The notes under the pieces: model-generated
The model's database searches: none
What the model was told of the DNA's origin: nothing
What the model saw: the letters and a program-made list of their open reading frames with translations, nothing else
IMG/VR virus record: IMGVR_UViG_3300022200_000018
Span: 1 to 27,059 of that record
Strand: one strand, 5' to 3'
Length of the DNA stretch: 27,059 bases
Source: a virus
In this document: positions 1-27,059 of the stretch, piece after piece
Layout: every line of letters begins with the position of its first letter
Numbering within the stretch: the first letter of the stretch is position 1
Position numbers and translations under genes: made by a program

Positions 1-21
1 CCATATCTCTGTTGTTTAGTA
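1..21. repeat. 21-bp terminal direct repeat, left copy
   Basis: Bases 1-21 are identical to bases 27039-27059. The repeat is not random sequence. Read on the minus strand it holds a TAC TAA gene end, an ACAACAGAGAT ribosome-binding-like stretch and an ATGG start, the same gene junction seen at 1647-1667 and 2580-2600 with two or three mismatches. It could be an assembly overlap of a circular molecule or two copies of a junction repeat that ended assembly. Gene order across the join favours circularity. Confidence 0.9.
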
Positions 22-1650
22 TCGACTTCCGTCAACTACAAATTTATTCTCTCCCTTACCATATTCGGTCGCTCCCTCGTAACCCATATCCTGAGCGAAA
101 CCTTCGTAGTCAAAGTAATTCTTCAAAGTCTTAGAATCCAAGTCACGAGGTTCTTCGCCAGTCATGTCAAAATATGCGTCTGCGAGTTTGTGGTCAGGTA
201 GATGTTCGTACTCAGCGAACCATTCATCTTCGCCTACCATATCCTCGAACTCACCGCTCAAACGCAGGTCGCGTCCCCATCGCTCATAGTTGAAGTAATC
301 GCTTACTCGGTCGTCCATGAGTCCTTCTTCTACAATGTGATAAGCGTACTCAAGGAGTGTACCCGTCCAAACTACTACATCGTCCCACCATCTCTCAAGG
401 TCTCCGTCTGCATCGTTGTAATCGGCGAACGCTTCTAAGATAGTCATCATTGGAACGTCGGTGTTTGACTCAAGCGTCTTAGCCGTCTTTAGGTTGTTCC
501 ATCCCGCTTCAGTCTCCACGTAGTATGGAGAAGGCATAAACTGCCAATCCACAGGCTCTACTTCGTCAGCAACAAACCCTTGGTGGTCAGACTCCAACTT
601 TGCGATACGTTCTTTTAGTCCGTCTTGCCAGTCATCAAATGACTTATAGTCGAGTGGATACATTGTAATATCCACGTCTTCAGGCTCAACATAATACGAG
701 TTTGAGTTATAGACGCGATACCAAACGATTACATCGTCGATAGACCCTAACTCCGTCTTGCCAATCTCTTTCAACTTCTCCTCGTACTTCTTCATGTATT
801 CGTCCTTCAGGTTCGTTTCAGGTTCGGCCTTTTCTTCAATTGCCTGAACTTGTCCGTCCCACTCAATTACAATGCCGTCGTAAATCTCAAATTCTGTTCC
901 TGCCTTTGTCTTATATGAGCCGTTGTCGATTTCGACCGCAGTGCCCTCAGCACCGATTTTGTAGACGCTTACACCTGCGGCAAACTCGTCGTCCTCAGTG
1001 GCAAAGACTGCTCCGTTATCAACTTCGATTTCGGCGTACAACTTACGACCCGTTACAATTGATTTCAAACGCCGTCCAAAACTTGGTTTGGGACGTTCTG
1101 ACATCTGTTCCAACTTGTCCAAGAAGTAGCCCTCGATAGAGAATCCTGCGACCTTCTGCTCTTTGACAAACTGCCACATCTCTTCGTTCTCCACCTGTAC
1201 ACGCACCATCCAAGTTCCTTCGGGTACGTCCAGTCCAAAGTGCCGTGCTTTATCTACTTCAGGATTGGATACAATCCATGACTCGACAACGGATACTCCG
1301 TCTACTTTCGAGTCGTGTTCTTCCGTCCACTCGTTCGTGCGATGAGTCTTCAAGAAAAGTTCGGATGCCTTTTGGACGGTCGTTTTTGAGAAGTACACAT
1401 CGTACTCCTCGTCCGAAAATTCGTCGTAGCGAGGGATATGCTTGTCAGGAATCAAAGCCGCACCAATTAGGGTACGTTTCTCCTCGTCTACGGAAGCCAT
1501 TGAGTACAGAGTCTTCTCCTTCTTGCCTTGCTTGCTGAAGTAGACAAAGTTCGATTCGATAGCAGGATACTTTACGAGAGAAATTGCTTCTACTCCAAAT
1601 GCGTCTGCTGACTCGTCAATAAGTAGTTCGATTAGTTTACGTCCTGCCAT
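16..1650 (-). CDS. XkdF-like prohead protease with C-terminal ArdA-like antirestriction domain
   Basis: This 544-residue protein appears to be a fusion. Residues about 1-185 match the XkdF-type prohead serine protease (S78-like): the VYFSK segment near 85-89, WTEEHD with candidate catalytic His112, GVSVVESWIV with Ser120 or Ser124, and the KVAGFSIEGYFLDKL block at 166-180. Residues about 200-275 form a beta-rich Gly/Asp segment, and about 280-300 is a Lys/Glu linker. Residues about 305-530 resemble ArdA, the acidic DNA mimic that blocks type I restriction enzymes. The clearest match is DYFNYERWGRDLRLSGEF at 451-468, and KNYFDYEGFAQDMGYEG at 510-526 looks like a second, diverged copy of the same block. 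The start is preceded by the recurring CAGAGAT motif. After circularisation the next genes are scaffold-like and capsid, which fits the protease role. The fold assignments are by recognition; packaging of the ArdA part is inference. Confidence 0.8.
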   Translation of the reverse strand: MAGRKLIELLIDESADAFGVEAISLVKYPAIESNFVYFSKQGKKEKTLYSMASVDEEKRTLIGAALIPDKHIPRYDEFSDEEYDVYFSKTTVQKASELFLKTHRTNEWTEEHDSKVDGVSVVESWIVSNPEVDKARHFGLDVPEGTWMVRVQVENEEMWQFVKEQKVAGFSIEGYFLDKLEQMSERPKPSFGRRLKSIVTGRKLYAEIEVDNGAVFATEDDEFAAGVSVYKIGAEGTAVEIDNGSYKTKAGTEFEIYDGIVIEWDGQVQAIEEKAEPETNLKDEYMKKYEEKLKEIGKTELGSIDDVIVWYRVYNSNSYYVEPEDVDITMYPLDYKSFDDWQDGLKERIAKLESDHQGFVADEVEPVDWQFMPSPYYVETEAGWNNLKTAKTLESNTDVPMMTILEAFADYNDADGDLERWWDDVVVWTGTLLEYAYHIVEEGLMDDRVSDYFNYERWGRDLRLSGEFEDMVGEDEWFAEYEHLPDHKLADAYFDMTGEEPRDLDSKTLKNYFDYEGFAQDMGYEGATEYGKGENKFVVDGSRY

Positions 1651-2838: not shown

Positions 2839-3039
2839 TTATTGTGCATCTACTGCCATGAAGCCGATGTCATCGGCGATGTTCTCCAACTCCATACGAA
2901 TATCTTCCGAACGCTCAAATACGTGGTCTACGTCCCTTTGATAAGGGTGTGAGGTCAATGCACGTTCAGCATCTTTCAATGCCTCTATCGCGTCCATAAC
3001 TTTTTTCTGAGCCGCTAAGTATTTGTCTGATGCGTCCAT
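2839..3039 (-). CDS. small helical acidic protein, first gene after promoter
   Basis: A 66-residue protein that looks almost wholly helical: DKYLAAQKKVMDAIEALKDAERAL near the N-terminus (read in two adjoining stretches), then a second acidic helix ending DDIGFMAVDAQ. It is probably a small coiled-coil or helical hairpin. Its start lies about 20 bases downstream of the predicted transcription start of the promoter at 3065-3094, after CATCAGATAG. Being first in the transcript, it would be strongly expressed. No function recognised. Confidence 0.75.
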   Translation of the reverse strand: MDASDKYLAAQKKVMDAIEALKDAERALTSHPYQRDVDHVFERSEDIRMELENIADDIGFMAVDAQ

Positions 3040-14502: not shown

Positions 14503-14951
14503 AATTGATACACGTCTTCCAATGCTCGCATACGACGCACTACACAAGGTGAACACCGACTGAACTTAGCACGTGCCTTAAAGACCTCGTTGTATAGTCC
14601 GTTGATGATGTTCTGCTCAGTAGCCGTCACCACGTTATCTTCAAACCTGTGACGTACTCCCTCCCATACTTTCTTCTGCTCCTCGGTCAGTGGTTCGTAG
14701 AATCGGAACATACGATTCAACTTGTCTTTTCGTGCATCGCATCCGCAGTCGTCAGTAAGTCCTTTGACCAAGGATTTAATACCCGTGGCTTCCGTTACCT
14801 TTTCTACTACGTCACCAAGACCCACTGCCTTTTTCGAGGTTGTTTTTCGCGGCTTCTTTGTAGTAGTTGATGAGTTCTTTGTACTCGGCTTCGCTGATTC
14901 GACCTGTTCGTTCAGATTCGATTCTGAGGTTTTCTGCTGTTCCTTCTCCAT
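14490..14951 (-). CDS. Cys-containing early protein overlapping ninG (153 aa)
   Basis: The folded part begins near residue 43 (VGLGDVVEKVTEATGIKSLV) and contains two Cys pairs, DDCGCDAR (Cys69, Cys71) and RCSPCVVR (Cys133, Cys136), which could bind one zinc. I have seen this combination (GDxVEKxTxATGIK, then CGCDARK) next to phage replication genes. The first 42 residues are low-complexity Ser/Thr/Lys and are encoded entirely within the end of ninG in another frame, an overlap of 140 bases. A GTG at Val43 (14825) could be the true start, which would nearly remove the overlap. No precise function is known to me. Confidence 0.7.
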   Translation of the reverse strand: MEKEQQKTSESNLNEQVESAKPSTKNSSTTTKKPRKTTSKKAVGLGDVVEKVTEATGIKSLVKGLTDDCGCDARKDKLNRMFRFYEPLTEEQKKVWEGVRHRFEDNVVTATEQNIINGLYNEVFKARAKFSRCSPCVVRRMRALEDVYQLCVS

Positions 14952-15216
14952 AGCGTTTGTCTAAATTGATTCCGAATTGATATTGCTCTCCCTGTGACCA
15001 CAAGTTACATCTTGGGCATTGAACTTGCACGTTTACAGGGTTAAAGCGAGTATTGAGTTTTGACCTTGATTGGAAGTGACCCGCGTGCATTTGCTTCCAA
15101 GGCTTCTTGACCAAGCAAGTAAAGCAAGTGGCTTGCCCATTTTCGTCAAGGTCACGGGTACGGATGAAGATGCTAAACACCTTATCCAAGTCTTTTTTAA
15201 GTTTTGCTACACTCAT
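14812..15216 (-). CDS. ninG: NinG/Rap-like recombination nuclease
   Basis: A 134-residue protein matching lambda NinG (Rap), an HNH-like structure-specific nuclease acting on recombination branches. Two zinc pairs are visible, CFTC (Cys31, Cys34) and CPRC (Cys67, Cys70). They flank the conserved MHAGHFQSRS (His44, His47) and the TRFNPVNVQVQC block, then QYQFGINLDKRYGEGTAENL, as in the family. Length is close to the compact members. It lies in the replication block, suggesting a role in resolving recombination or replication intermediates. The leader holds a strong hairpin, and the last 47 codons overlap the next gene. Confidence 0.85.
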   Translation of the reverse strand: MSVAKLKKDLDKVFSIFIRTRDLDENGQATCFTCLVKKPWKQMHAGHFQSRSKLNTRFNPVNVQVQCPRCNLWSQGEQYQFGINLDKRYGEGTAENLRIESERTGRISEAEYKELINYYKEAAKNNLEKGSGSW

Positions 15217-25208: not shown

Positions 25209-26198
25209 TTAAACGAGATTGTATCCAACAACTACGTCAGGAGCAATACCCGCGATGGTGTTCAAAGCCATACGCATTACTACACGCACGTTGTCTGAAC
25301 CATCGTATTGATAGACTGGAATAAACTCAACTTGCGTCAAGTCCGTACCTGCGTTAGTACCTACAATCAGGTTTTCCGCTTGACCCAAAACGATTGTATC
25401 GTCGAACATACCAGGACAACGATGAACAGGAACACCCAAGTAGGTTACTCCGTCAAAGTTTTGGTTGGTCGCTTGGTTAACATAACCTTGACCACCTGTT
25501 GTTGCCAATTGGTACAAGTAGAACGAGTACGTCTTAGGAGAAACAAAGAACGCCAAATCCGACTTAGCCAAAATAGCAGGTTTAGTCGTTGCCGCTTTGT
25601 TATATACTGCATTGAACGCCGCAAACGCTTGTGTTCCACTCGGTACTTCAGTAGAAGTAAACTCGTGAGTTGTAGCAGATGCCAACGCACCTGAAGCAAA
25701 TCCAGTCGAATCAAGAACACCATCGTTAGACAAGAAACCAGTAACTCCCAAAGTGCTATCACCTTTCCAAATGATAGTCTCTACTTGTTCCGCAGTTTTA
25801 GCCGCTACCAATTCGAGAACATGGTTCACGAACTCCTGACGCATCATGTTAGAACCTACACGTGAACCTGACTGACCCTGCCATGTTGGATAGATGTCTT
25901 TACGACAAATTTCCTCGTTAACCTGCAAATCAACCAAGGTCAGAGTCTTGTCTGCCAACGACAAATCGTTGCCATTAGTAAACGCACAACTTGCCGCTAC
26001 CAATGGGTTGCTCATGGTAGAGGTAGTAATGTTCGTCTTGTACTGGATGCCGTCAATTTTGCGTACCCAGTTGTTCGCCAAAGTATCACCCGCACTCAAG
26101 GCCGCAGTGATAATTGGGTCTTTCAAATCACCTACATAGGTGTTTGGGCTATACGTTGTCAACTCGCGACGATTCGCCCGATAAGGATTGTAACTCAT
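25209..26198 (-). CDS. major capsid protein (HK97 fold type)
   Basis: A 329-residue protein matching major capsid proteins of Bacteroidota siphophages: an extended N-terminus (NPYRANRRELTTYSPN), KIDGIQYKTNITTSTMSN near 47-64, LTLVDLQVNEEICRKDIYPT near 86-105, a long spine-like helix (MMRQEFVNHVLELVAAKTAE) near 118-137, and an A-domain-type ending (YQYDGSDNVRVVMRMAL, then APDVVVGYNLV). No proteolytic delta-domain is visible at its N-terminus, so the separate scaffold-like protein upstream probably guides assembly. Start lies one base past the scaffold stop. Confidence 0.88.
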   Translation of the reverse strand: MSYNPYRANRRELTTYSPNTYVGDLKDPIITAALSAGDTLANNWVRKIDGIQYKTNITTSTMSNPLVAASCAFTNGNDLSLADKTLTLVDLQVNEEICRKDIYPTWQGQSGSRVGSNMMRQEFVNHVLELVAAKTAEQVETIIWKGDSTLGVTGFLSNDGVLDSTGFASGALASATTHEFTSTEVPSGTQAFAAFNAVYNKAATTKPAILAKSDLAFFVSPKTYSFYLYQLATTGGQGYVNQATNQNFDGVTYLGVPVHRCPGMFDDTIVLGQAENLIVGTNAGTDLTQVEFIPVYQYDGSDNVRVVMRMALNTIAGIAPDVVVGYNLV

Positions 26199-26199
26199 T

Positions 26200-26781
26200 T
26201 TACTTCATAAAAGATTTTACGCGGTCAAGTACGTTGCCCTGAGTAGGCATTGCCTTGACCTCCGTGTTAAACTCTCCACGTGTCCGCTCAGGACGCGCGG
26301 CAGGTTGTGCGCCAAACTCCTTGAGTTGACGCTTCAACTCCATAATCTCACGACGTTGACGGCGCAACATCATTTGAGTGCGGTTGTCAGTAGTGCCGAA
26401 GTCACGACGACCACGTACCTCACCCCGTACAGGGCGACGACCGCTAAATTCACTCCGTTGTCCACGTGCTGGACGACGACTCATGTTCGCCCGACGACGT
26501 GCCATTGCCCGACGACGACGTGCGCGAGCCATTTGTGTTTCTTGGGCATCACCTTCTTGTGCGCCTCCTGCGTTTACCAAATCCATTGCCATTTGATGTA
26601 CTGCTTCTGCTTGGTCTGCCGATAACCCCATCTCGGTCAGAATATTAACGAATTGTTCGTGGGAATCAGGGGTAGATTCCTCCTCAACTACCTCTTCGGT
26701 AGTGGTCTCCTCGGTTTGGTCTTTGACCTCTTCCTCGAATTTCCGTGCGCGACGTGCGCGGTATTTATTTTGGTTATACAT
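26200..26781 (-). CDS. scaffold-like capsid assembly protein with Arg-rich region
   Basis: A 193-residue highly charged protein directly before the capsid gene. Segments: basic start, acidic stretch at about 16-42 (EEEVK, TEETTTEEVVEEE), a compact helical region at 42-72 (FVNILTEMGLSADQAEAVHQ), an Arg-rich stretch at about 85-146 (RARRRRAMARRRANMSRRPAR), a helix at 143-156 and a C-terminal GNVLDRVKSFMK that may bind capsid. Position, charge and low complexity indicate a scaffold or an internal assembly protein. The Arg block would bind nucleic acid. The coding DNA has a CGACGACG microrepeat near 26466-26525. Start preceded by AAAGAGAT. Confidence 0.7.
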   Translation of the reverse strand: MYNQNKYRARRARKFEEEVKDQTEETTTEEVVEEESTPDSHEQFVNILTEMGLSADQAEAVHQMAMDLVNAGGAQEGDAQETQMARARRRRAMARRRANMSRRPARGQRSEFSGRRPVRGEVRGRRDFGTTDNRTQMMLRRQRREIMELKRQLKEFGAQPAARPERTRGEFNTEVKAMPTQGNVLDRVKSFMK

Positions 26782-26793
26782 ATCTCTTTTTGA

Positions 26794-27042
26794 TTACTCC
26801 CAATAAACTGACATCCTCGCCGTATTGCCGCGAACATTTACAATCACCTGCTCCGCAATTGGATGTAAGTAAAACTCCATCTCTTCTGCAATAAACCCTA
26901 ATTCATTAATGTCGTCGCGTGAGAGGTTGTCCCAATAAAACTCAACGCCACCTCCAACGGAAAGTGCTTCGTCAAATTGCGGAAATCCCGCTCGCCGCAG
27001 TTCTTCTGCAACGATGTCTGCTGTATCATGAAAATATCCCAT
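26794..27042 (-). CDS. small acidic protein between protease and scaffold (82 aa)
   Basis: An 82-residue acidic protein, MGYFHDTADIVAEELRRAGF at the start. It has a Gly-rich strand (SVGGGVEFYWD), an acidic helix (DDINELGFIAEEMEFYL) and two end strands (EQVIVNVRG, ARMSVYWE). No family recognised; its size and alpha/beta layout resemble the small genes at 2.0-2.8 kb. In circular reading it starts 12 bases after the stop of the protease-ArdA gene, with the junction motif ACAACAGAGAT before the ATG. It is thus the continuation of the accessory run into the head genes. Confidence 0.75.
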   Translation of the reverse strand: MGYFHDTADIVAEELRRAGFPQFDEALSVGGGVEFYWDNLSRDDINELGFIAEEMEFYLHPIAEQVIVNVRGNTARMSVYWE

Positions 27043-27059
27043 ATCTCTGTTGTTTAGTA
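27039..27059. repeat. 21-bp terminal direct repeat, right copy
   Basis: Identical to bases 1-21. Here it contains the first bases of the 82-residue gene and the upstream TAAACAACAGAGAT element. If the ends are joined through it, the last codon and stop of the protease-ArdA gene reconstitute without a gap. Confidence 0.9.

Follow-up and report, generated by a model that had tools for sequence, protein, structure and literature searches.

A prohead protease with an ArdA antirestriction domain at its C terminus, flanked by a repeat-linked array of small acidic genes, in a metagenomic virus contig

Analysis of a 27,059-nucleotide (nt) virus sequence (IMG/VR record IMGVR_UViG_3300022200_000018, positions 1 to 27,059; here, the window) showed that the open frame at 16 to 1650 on the minus strand encodes a single 544-amino-acid (aa) protein with no internal stops. 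From its sequence and modeled fold, this protein is best explained as an active-type prohead protease with a complete ArdA antirestriction domain at its C terminus. A preliminary description of the window, in which the strand was unstated, had proposed such a fusion, and Pfam, PHROGs, the fold, and the recurrence of the fusion in other contigs all bear it out. In Pfam, residues 52 to 174 matched PF14550 (XkdF; E 6e-17, 62.2 bits against a cut-off of 24), and PF07275 (ArdA) matched the whole protein over two segments (E 1.5e-8; 35.8 bits, cut-off 27). The isolated ArdA half matched the same family at E 3e-11 (44.6 bits); 11 of the 12 members of the ArdA-half alignment also matched ArdA. The PHROGs labels, head maturation protease and anti-restriction protein, agree with Pfam. 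A search of PDB sequences with the single fusion protein gave no match, and one with the protease profile gave spurious rows only; with a profile built from the ArdA-half alignment, Tn916 ArdA (2w82) ranked first (E 0.001).

The protein is laid out, from its N terminus, as follows. The XkdF/S78_2 protease occupies residues 1 to 184 (1099 to 1650), as supported by PF14550, invariant columns, and alignment to the T4 gp21 protease structure 5jbl. His112 (1315 to 1317) and Ser124 (1279 to 1281) lie in blocks that are invariant across 13 aligned relatives and are the candidate catalytic residues. Next come a small beta-barrel (residues 205 to 267; 850 to 1038), which is present in all close relatives and resembles CopK in the model, and a helix (residues 281 to 300; 751 to 810) flanked by acidic linkers, which is where unfused relatives usually end. 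The ArdA domain follows at residues 306 to 544 (19 to 735); it is complete and aligns colinearly with ArdA encoded as a separate gene in relatives. The beta-rich segment and linker that the preliminary description placed between the halves correspond in the model to the barrel, the helix, and the linkers at 182 to 204, 270 to 279, and 297 to 304. These three linkers, together with residues 32 to 50 and 104 to 111, are the low-confidence stretches of the AlphaFold2 model, which was based on 32 sequences from the window and the locus and has a mean predicted local distance difference test (pLDDT) score of 79, exceeding 90 over most of residues 310 to 544.

Comparison of this model with known structures by VIA-align revealed the likeness of both halves that the preliminary description had foreseen. 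Rank 1 was the T4 gp21 protease over residues 29 to 184 (Z 7.7, root mean square deviation [rmsd] 2.9, 114 residues), followed by two CopK entries over the barrel at 199 to 267 (Z 6.8 and 6.4) and by Tn916 ArdA, residues 3 to 164 of which align to residues 306 to 542 (Z 6.3, rmsd 4.0, 150 residues). Below these were a third CopK row and unrelated rows from Z 2.9 down. Z values of 6 to 8 are by themselves moderate, and the case for both domains is made because sequence and fold agree. An earlier, weaker model (12 sequences, pLDDT 70) had given 2w82 as its top row (Z 3.4), and with either model Foldseek found nothing significant in the PDB. Against the viral structure set BFVD, Foldseek matched mostly XkdF proteins. 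Two XkdF-like viral proteins in this set, A0A6J5KKZ6 and A0A6J5M6S8, bear Zeta toxin or ChaB names, which suggests protease fusions with other domains elsewhere.

The join between the two halves is genuine. An identical copy of the gene is present in L003/L080, and contig L003 stops at the same base as the window and is therefore not a fully independent copy, a point in favor of an assembly join or a sequencing frameshift. Such an artifact was ruled out by diverged homologous fusions in contigs from other samples, namely, L249 (552 aa), L221, L222, and L266 (548 aa), and L265 plus L264, a truncated near-copy of it. The tail of the L221 group lacks a Pfam ArdA hit and matched free ArdA at 30 to 33% identity (E 1e-21 to 1e-24). 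In the ArdA tree, the fused rows require at least two changes and form a single group in 0% of bootstrap trees; the window is joined with L249 and L221 by long branches, so that this grouping is unsure. In the protease tree, three to four changes are needed for the ArdA tails. The fused ArdA half is under purifying selection in one lineage, where the ratio of nonsynonymous to synonymous substitution rates is ∼0.19 (L221 versus L222/L266). No ArdA other than the fused copy was found in the records of the window, L249, L264, and L265, some of which are fragments, as metagenome contigs may be.

ArdA is nevertheless a free gene in most relatives. Free ArdA was counted in 19 arrays of small genes like the one described below, and free ArdA genes lie near the protease, within the head-gene block. 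In L021, the stop codon of the protease gene overlaps the ArdA start codon (ATGA); L019, L024, and L031 have the two genes side by side. The fused ArdA is colinear with free ArdA from its first residues on. This would fit a tolerated fusion: ArdA normally lies close behind the protease gene, a lost stop codon or a small frameshift joined the two, and ArdA would act in the cytoplasm in the course of infection, shielding replicating or late DNA, with no purposeful packaging. Such an account is possible but doubtful; it sits poorly with the recurrence of the fusion on separate branches, with the purifying selection in one lineage, and with the observation that other small genes of the locus join the protease but not each other. 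A second account, that ArdA is also made alone from Met286 and the fusion is incidental, could appeal to the ATG at this position and an AAGGA seven bases upstream. It appears very improbable, since the fusion lacks a start codon at the point corresponding to where free ArdA begins and since phages of the Bacteroidota type, of which this may be one, make little use of such ribosome-binding sites. Separately, the protease frame of L022 (1295 to 2242) is broken into two open reading frames (ORFs).

Further comparison of the protease relatives showed what else their C termini carry. Most stop just past the helix or finish with a short YPWDEC domain, and 39 of 71 have no tail. In others, this end bears small proteins encoded in the same locus, of at least five kinds besides ArdA. 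Identity of the tail to a free array gene is 77% in L008, 58% in L036, 37% for the DUF7249-like tail of L039, and 34 to 39% in L040 to L042 and L246; the L037/L260 tail had no match. The L010 tail is 98.8% identical to the free gene directly after the L218 protease, making a near before/after pair. Two kinds of tail have been exchanged between sister proteases in the protease tree (L246/L260 and L037/L040). By hand count, 10 of the 48 proteases of the array set carry a small-protein tail (one of them unmatched), compared to fusions between small proteins in 0 of 392 adjacent small-gene pairs, and no ORF of at least 105 aa joins two small families (Fisher tests of this contrast, 1e-10 by gene and 1e-6 by kind, both ignore relatedness). 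The best explanation for these sequences is that, among these small, uncultured phages, the protease end draws repeatedly on the neighboring array of small acidic genes for its tails.

Whether the tail is also an exchangeable cargo slot that brings counter-defense proteins into the prohead, with the ArdA fusion as one case, we regard as evenly balanced. Incorporation into the prohead along with the scaffold is established for prohead proteases in general, and in T4 they form part of the prohead core (PMC9026906). The protease would enter the prohead together with the scaffold, carrying its C-terminal tail along; proteolysis in the flexible linkers at 270 to 279 and 297 to 304 would release folded ArdA, which would remain in the head, exit with the DNA, and block type I restriction at entry. 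Packaging, cleavage, ejection, and antirestriction activity of the tail are all inferred. The preliminary description had suggested that the protease domain serves as an import address. This becomes more plausible because the same protease end takes varied small acidic proteins whereas fusions among small proteins were not found, and because free ArdA genes lie close to the protease within the head-gene block, the usual location of genes for phage polyvalent proteins (PMC5512222). Fusion is not a requirement, since ArdA is unfused in most relatives.

Several points weigh against the cargo slot. First, the free ArdA gene just downstream of the protease in most relatives means that such an address is dispensable. 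Second, kinship among the phages weakens the count of tailed proteases, and joining a tail to a large protein may simply be less disruptive than joining two small proteins. Third, no cleavage site was identified in the fusion, and the window genes considered all lie on one strand, so that late-only expression is unsupported. Finally, most of the prohead protease of T4 leaves the head, going from 72 to 3 copies (PMC9026906), so that the delivered dose could be low. The role might instead be structural, with the acidic tail binding the putative scaffold at its basic half or mimicking DNA to time packaging. The tails are indeed acidic small proteins from many families, and the C-terminal half of putative scaffolds is basic (net charge +8 to +16). 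This alternative is nonetheless improbable given the 39 tail-less proteases and the membership of ArdA, a DNA mimic, in a known family of restriction inhibitors.

The array from which the tails appear to come, which the preliminary description had missed, flanks the protease gene, and its genes are mostly linked by a 17-nt junction repeat, TAAACAACAGAGATATG, consisting of a stop codon, 11 nt, and a start codon. A motif scan found seven sites with up to three mismatches in the window, compared to 0.06 expected, all on the minus strand. Two are exact: 2 to 18, directly after ArdA, and 27040 to 27056, at the opposite contig end. The others are at 1648 to 1664, before the protease gene (two mismatches), 1998 to 2014 (two), 2257 to 2273 (one), and 2581 to 2597 (three), with a junction-like site at 2823 to 2839 (three). 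The small genes, also on the minus strand, are at 1662 to 2000 (112 aa), 2011 to 2259 (82 aa), 2272 to 2583 (103 aa; family f22, with 10 members), 2595 to 2849 (84 or 76 aa; family f118), and 2839 to 3039 (66 aa), with another array gene, of 82 aa, at 26794 to 27042, located between the putative scaffold and the end of the contig.

A scan of viral contigs for TAAACAACAGAGATATG found 65 stretches with at most seven exact copies each. Among contigs with at least two sites, the junction stands upstream of 254 of 398 small genes and 14 of 40 proteases, compared to 2 of 444 genes outside arrays, one of which is in fact an 82-aa array gene of the window. This makes a general ribosome-binding role unlikely. 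The junction precedes none of the 17 free ArdA genes, which rules out ArdA as an ordinary repeat-bounded cassette. Comparison of contigs showed whole genes gained or lost, where the breakpoints fall within the junction and the flanking sequence is up to 99 to 100% identical; examples are f34-[f17]-f36 and f40-[f58]-f34. Array families switch neighbors, and 36 of them are found on both sides of the protease. The array was also seen in L008, L067, L089, and L105, and other lineages have a junction of their own, uniform per genome, such as TAAACCACAACGATATG in L260. Differing junction sequences occur at L260 5196 to 6227, L249 3094 to 3872, and L218 5083 to 5614. A gene of ∼270 aa (family f18; L124 881 to 1693) recurs in arrays, with a junction at 8 of its 15 copies. 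Among cellular genomes, a repeat array is present only in the binned contig L148; the other 33 cellular stretches have single matches, about the chance level as estimated by length. L148 sits in a Pseudomonadales metagenome-assembled genome bin and is probably a phage contig, possibly misbinned.

The small array genes fall into ∼133 families and are extremely acidic, with an isoelectric point (pI) below 5 for 98% of the 133 family representatives compared to 48% of other genes; the median for the representatives, 4.05, is the lowest pI that the program returns. Only ArdA, DUF7249, DUF3846, and DpnD-PcfM gave credible Pfam matches among these families, and PADLOC matched none of 138 small proteins. 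We tentatively suggest that the array consists of rapidly exchanged, DNA-mimic-like counter-defense genes, one of which the protease tail would place in each particle, to be delivered along with the DNA. A candidate recombination factor for the array is the homologue of the NinG/Rap recombination protein at 14812 to 15216 (PF05766, E 4e-16). Integron gene-cassette arrays come with a tyrosine integrase and structured attC sites; no integrase was recognized among the part of the window's proteins that was scanned, and attC sites are much longer than the 17-nt junction.

ArdA and the small gene array lie inside the head-gene block. The major capsid protein is encoded at 25209 to 26198 (minus strand; PHROGs, weak PF09950), and the gene at 26200 to 26781 (minus strand) is the putative scaffold, from its position before the capsid gene and its charge pattern; the labels scaffold and tape measure rest on position. 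The window ends (1 to 20 and 27039 to 27059) share 21 nt inside the junction repeat. This suggests a circular genome of ∼27.04 kb broken at the repeat; the IMG/VR record says linear. The only named relatives by protease and capsid are the distant Nonlabens phages P12024L/S, which infect Persicivirga. In P12024L (L129 33158 to 35521), eight small genes of opposite strand occupy the spot before the protease.

Neither a protease-ArdA fusion nor the 17-nt repeat was found described in the open-access literature, of which coverage was partial. The closest known ideas are polyvalent proteins, MuF toxins, T4 IPI, and the P1 Dar proteins. Polyvalent proteins are multidomain, have virion-gene neighbors, combine antirestriction domains, including ArdA, with peptidase domains, and have been proposed to be packaged (Iyer et al. 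2017, PMC5512222). The fusion likewise has conflict domains in one chain encoded among virion genes, but its domain order differs, with the phage's own head protease N-terminal and then one payload. MuF polymorphic toxins similarly combine a constant head-associated N-terminal domain with a variable C-terminal domain (Jamet et al. 2017, PMC5576092); here, the carrier is a protease, and the payloads are acidic, include an antirestriction protein, and are not known toxins. Packaged antirestriction proteins exist, as T4 IPI and the P1 Dar proteins are precedents. T4 IPI, a small restriction inhibitor that is packaged, processed by the T4 prohead protease, and injected (PMC9026906), is a free basic protein bearing a short propeptide for targeting, whereas here the domain is borne by the protease itself. 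P1 DarA and Hdf are antirestriction proteins located inside the head, as proposed here, but are neither fused to a protease nor ArdA (PMC12810830). Tn916 ArdA (2w82) shares fold and family with the ArdA half but is a 165-aa chain; the domain here has ∼240 residues and contains the C-terminal ArdA motif twice. As for the junction, the start-associated sequences of cluster K mycobacteriophages are also short repeats at the starts of many unrelated genes (PMC3203893), but the junction here runs from a stop codon across the gap to a start codon, is restricted to a single array, and coincides exactly with the limits of genes that were gained or lost.

If the cargo slot is real, it would explain how a phage could escape restriction as soon as its DNA enters the cell, and the natural before/after pair L218/L010 permits a direct test of this idea. 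The shared 17-nt repeat also points to ∼130 families of small acidic proteins, nearly all of them unannotated, as candidates for counter-defense.
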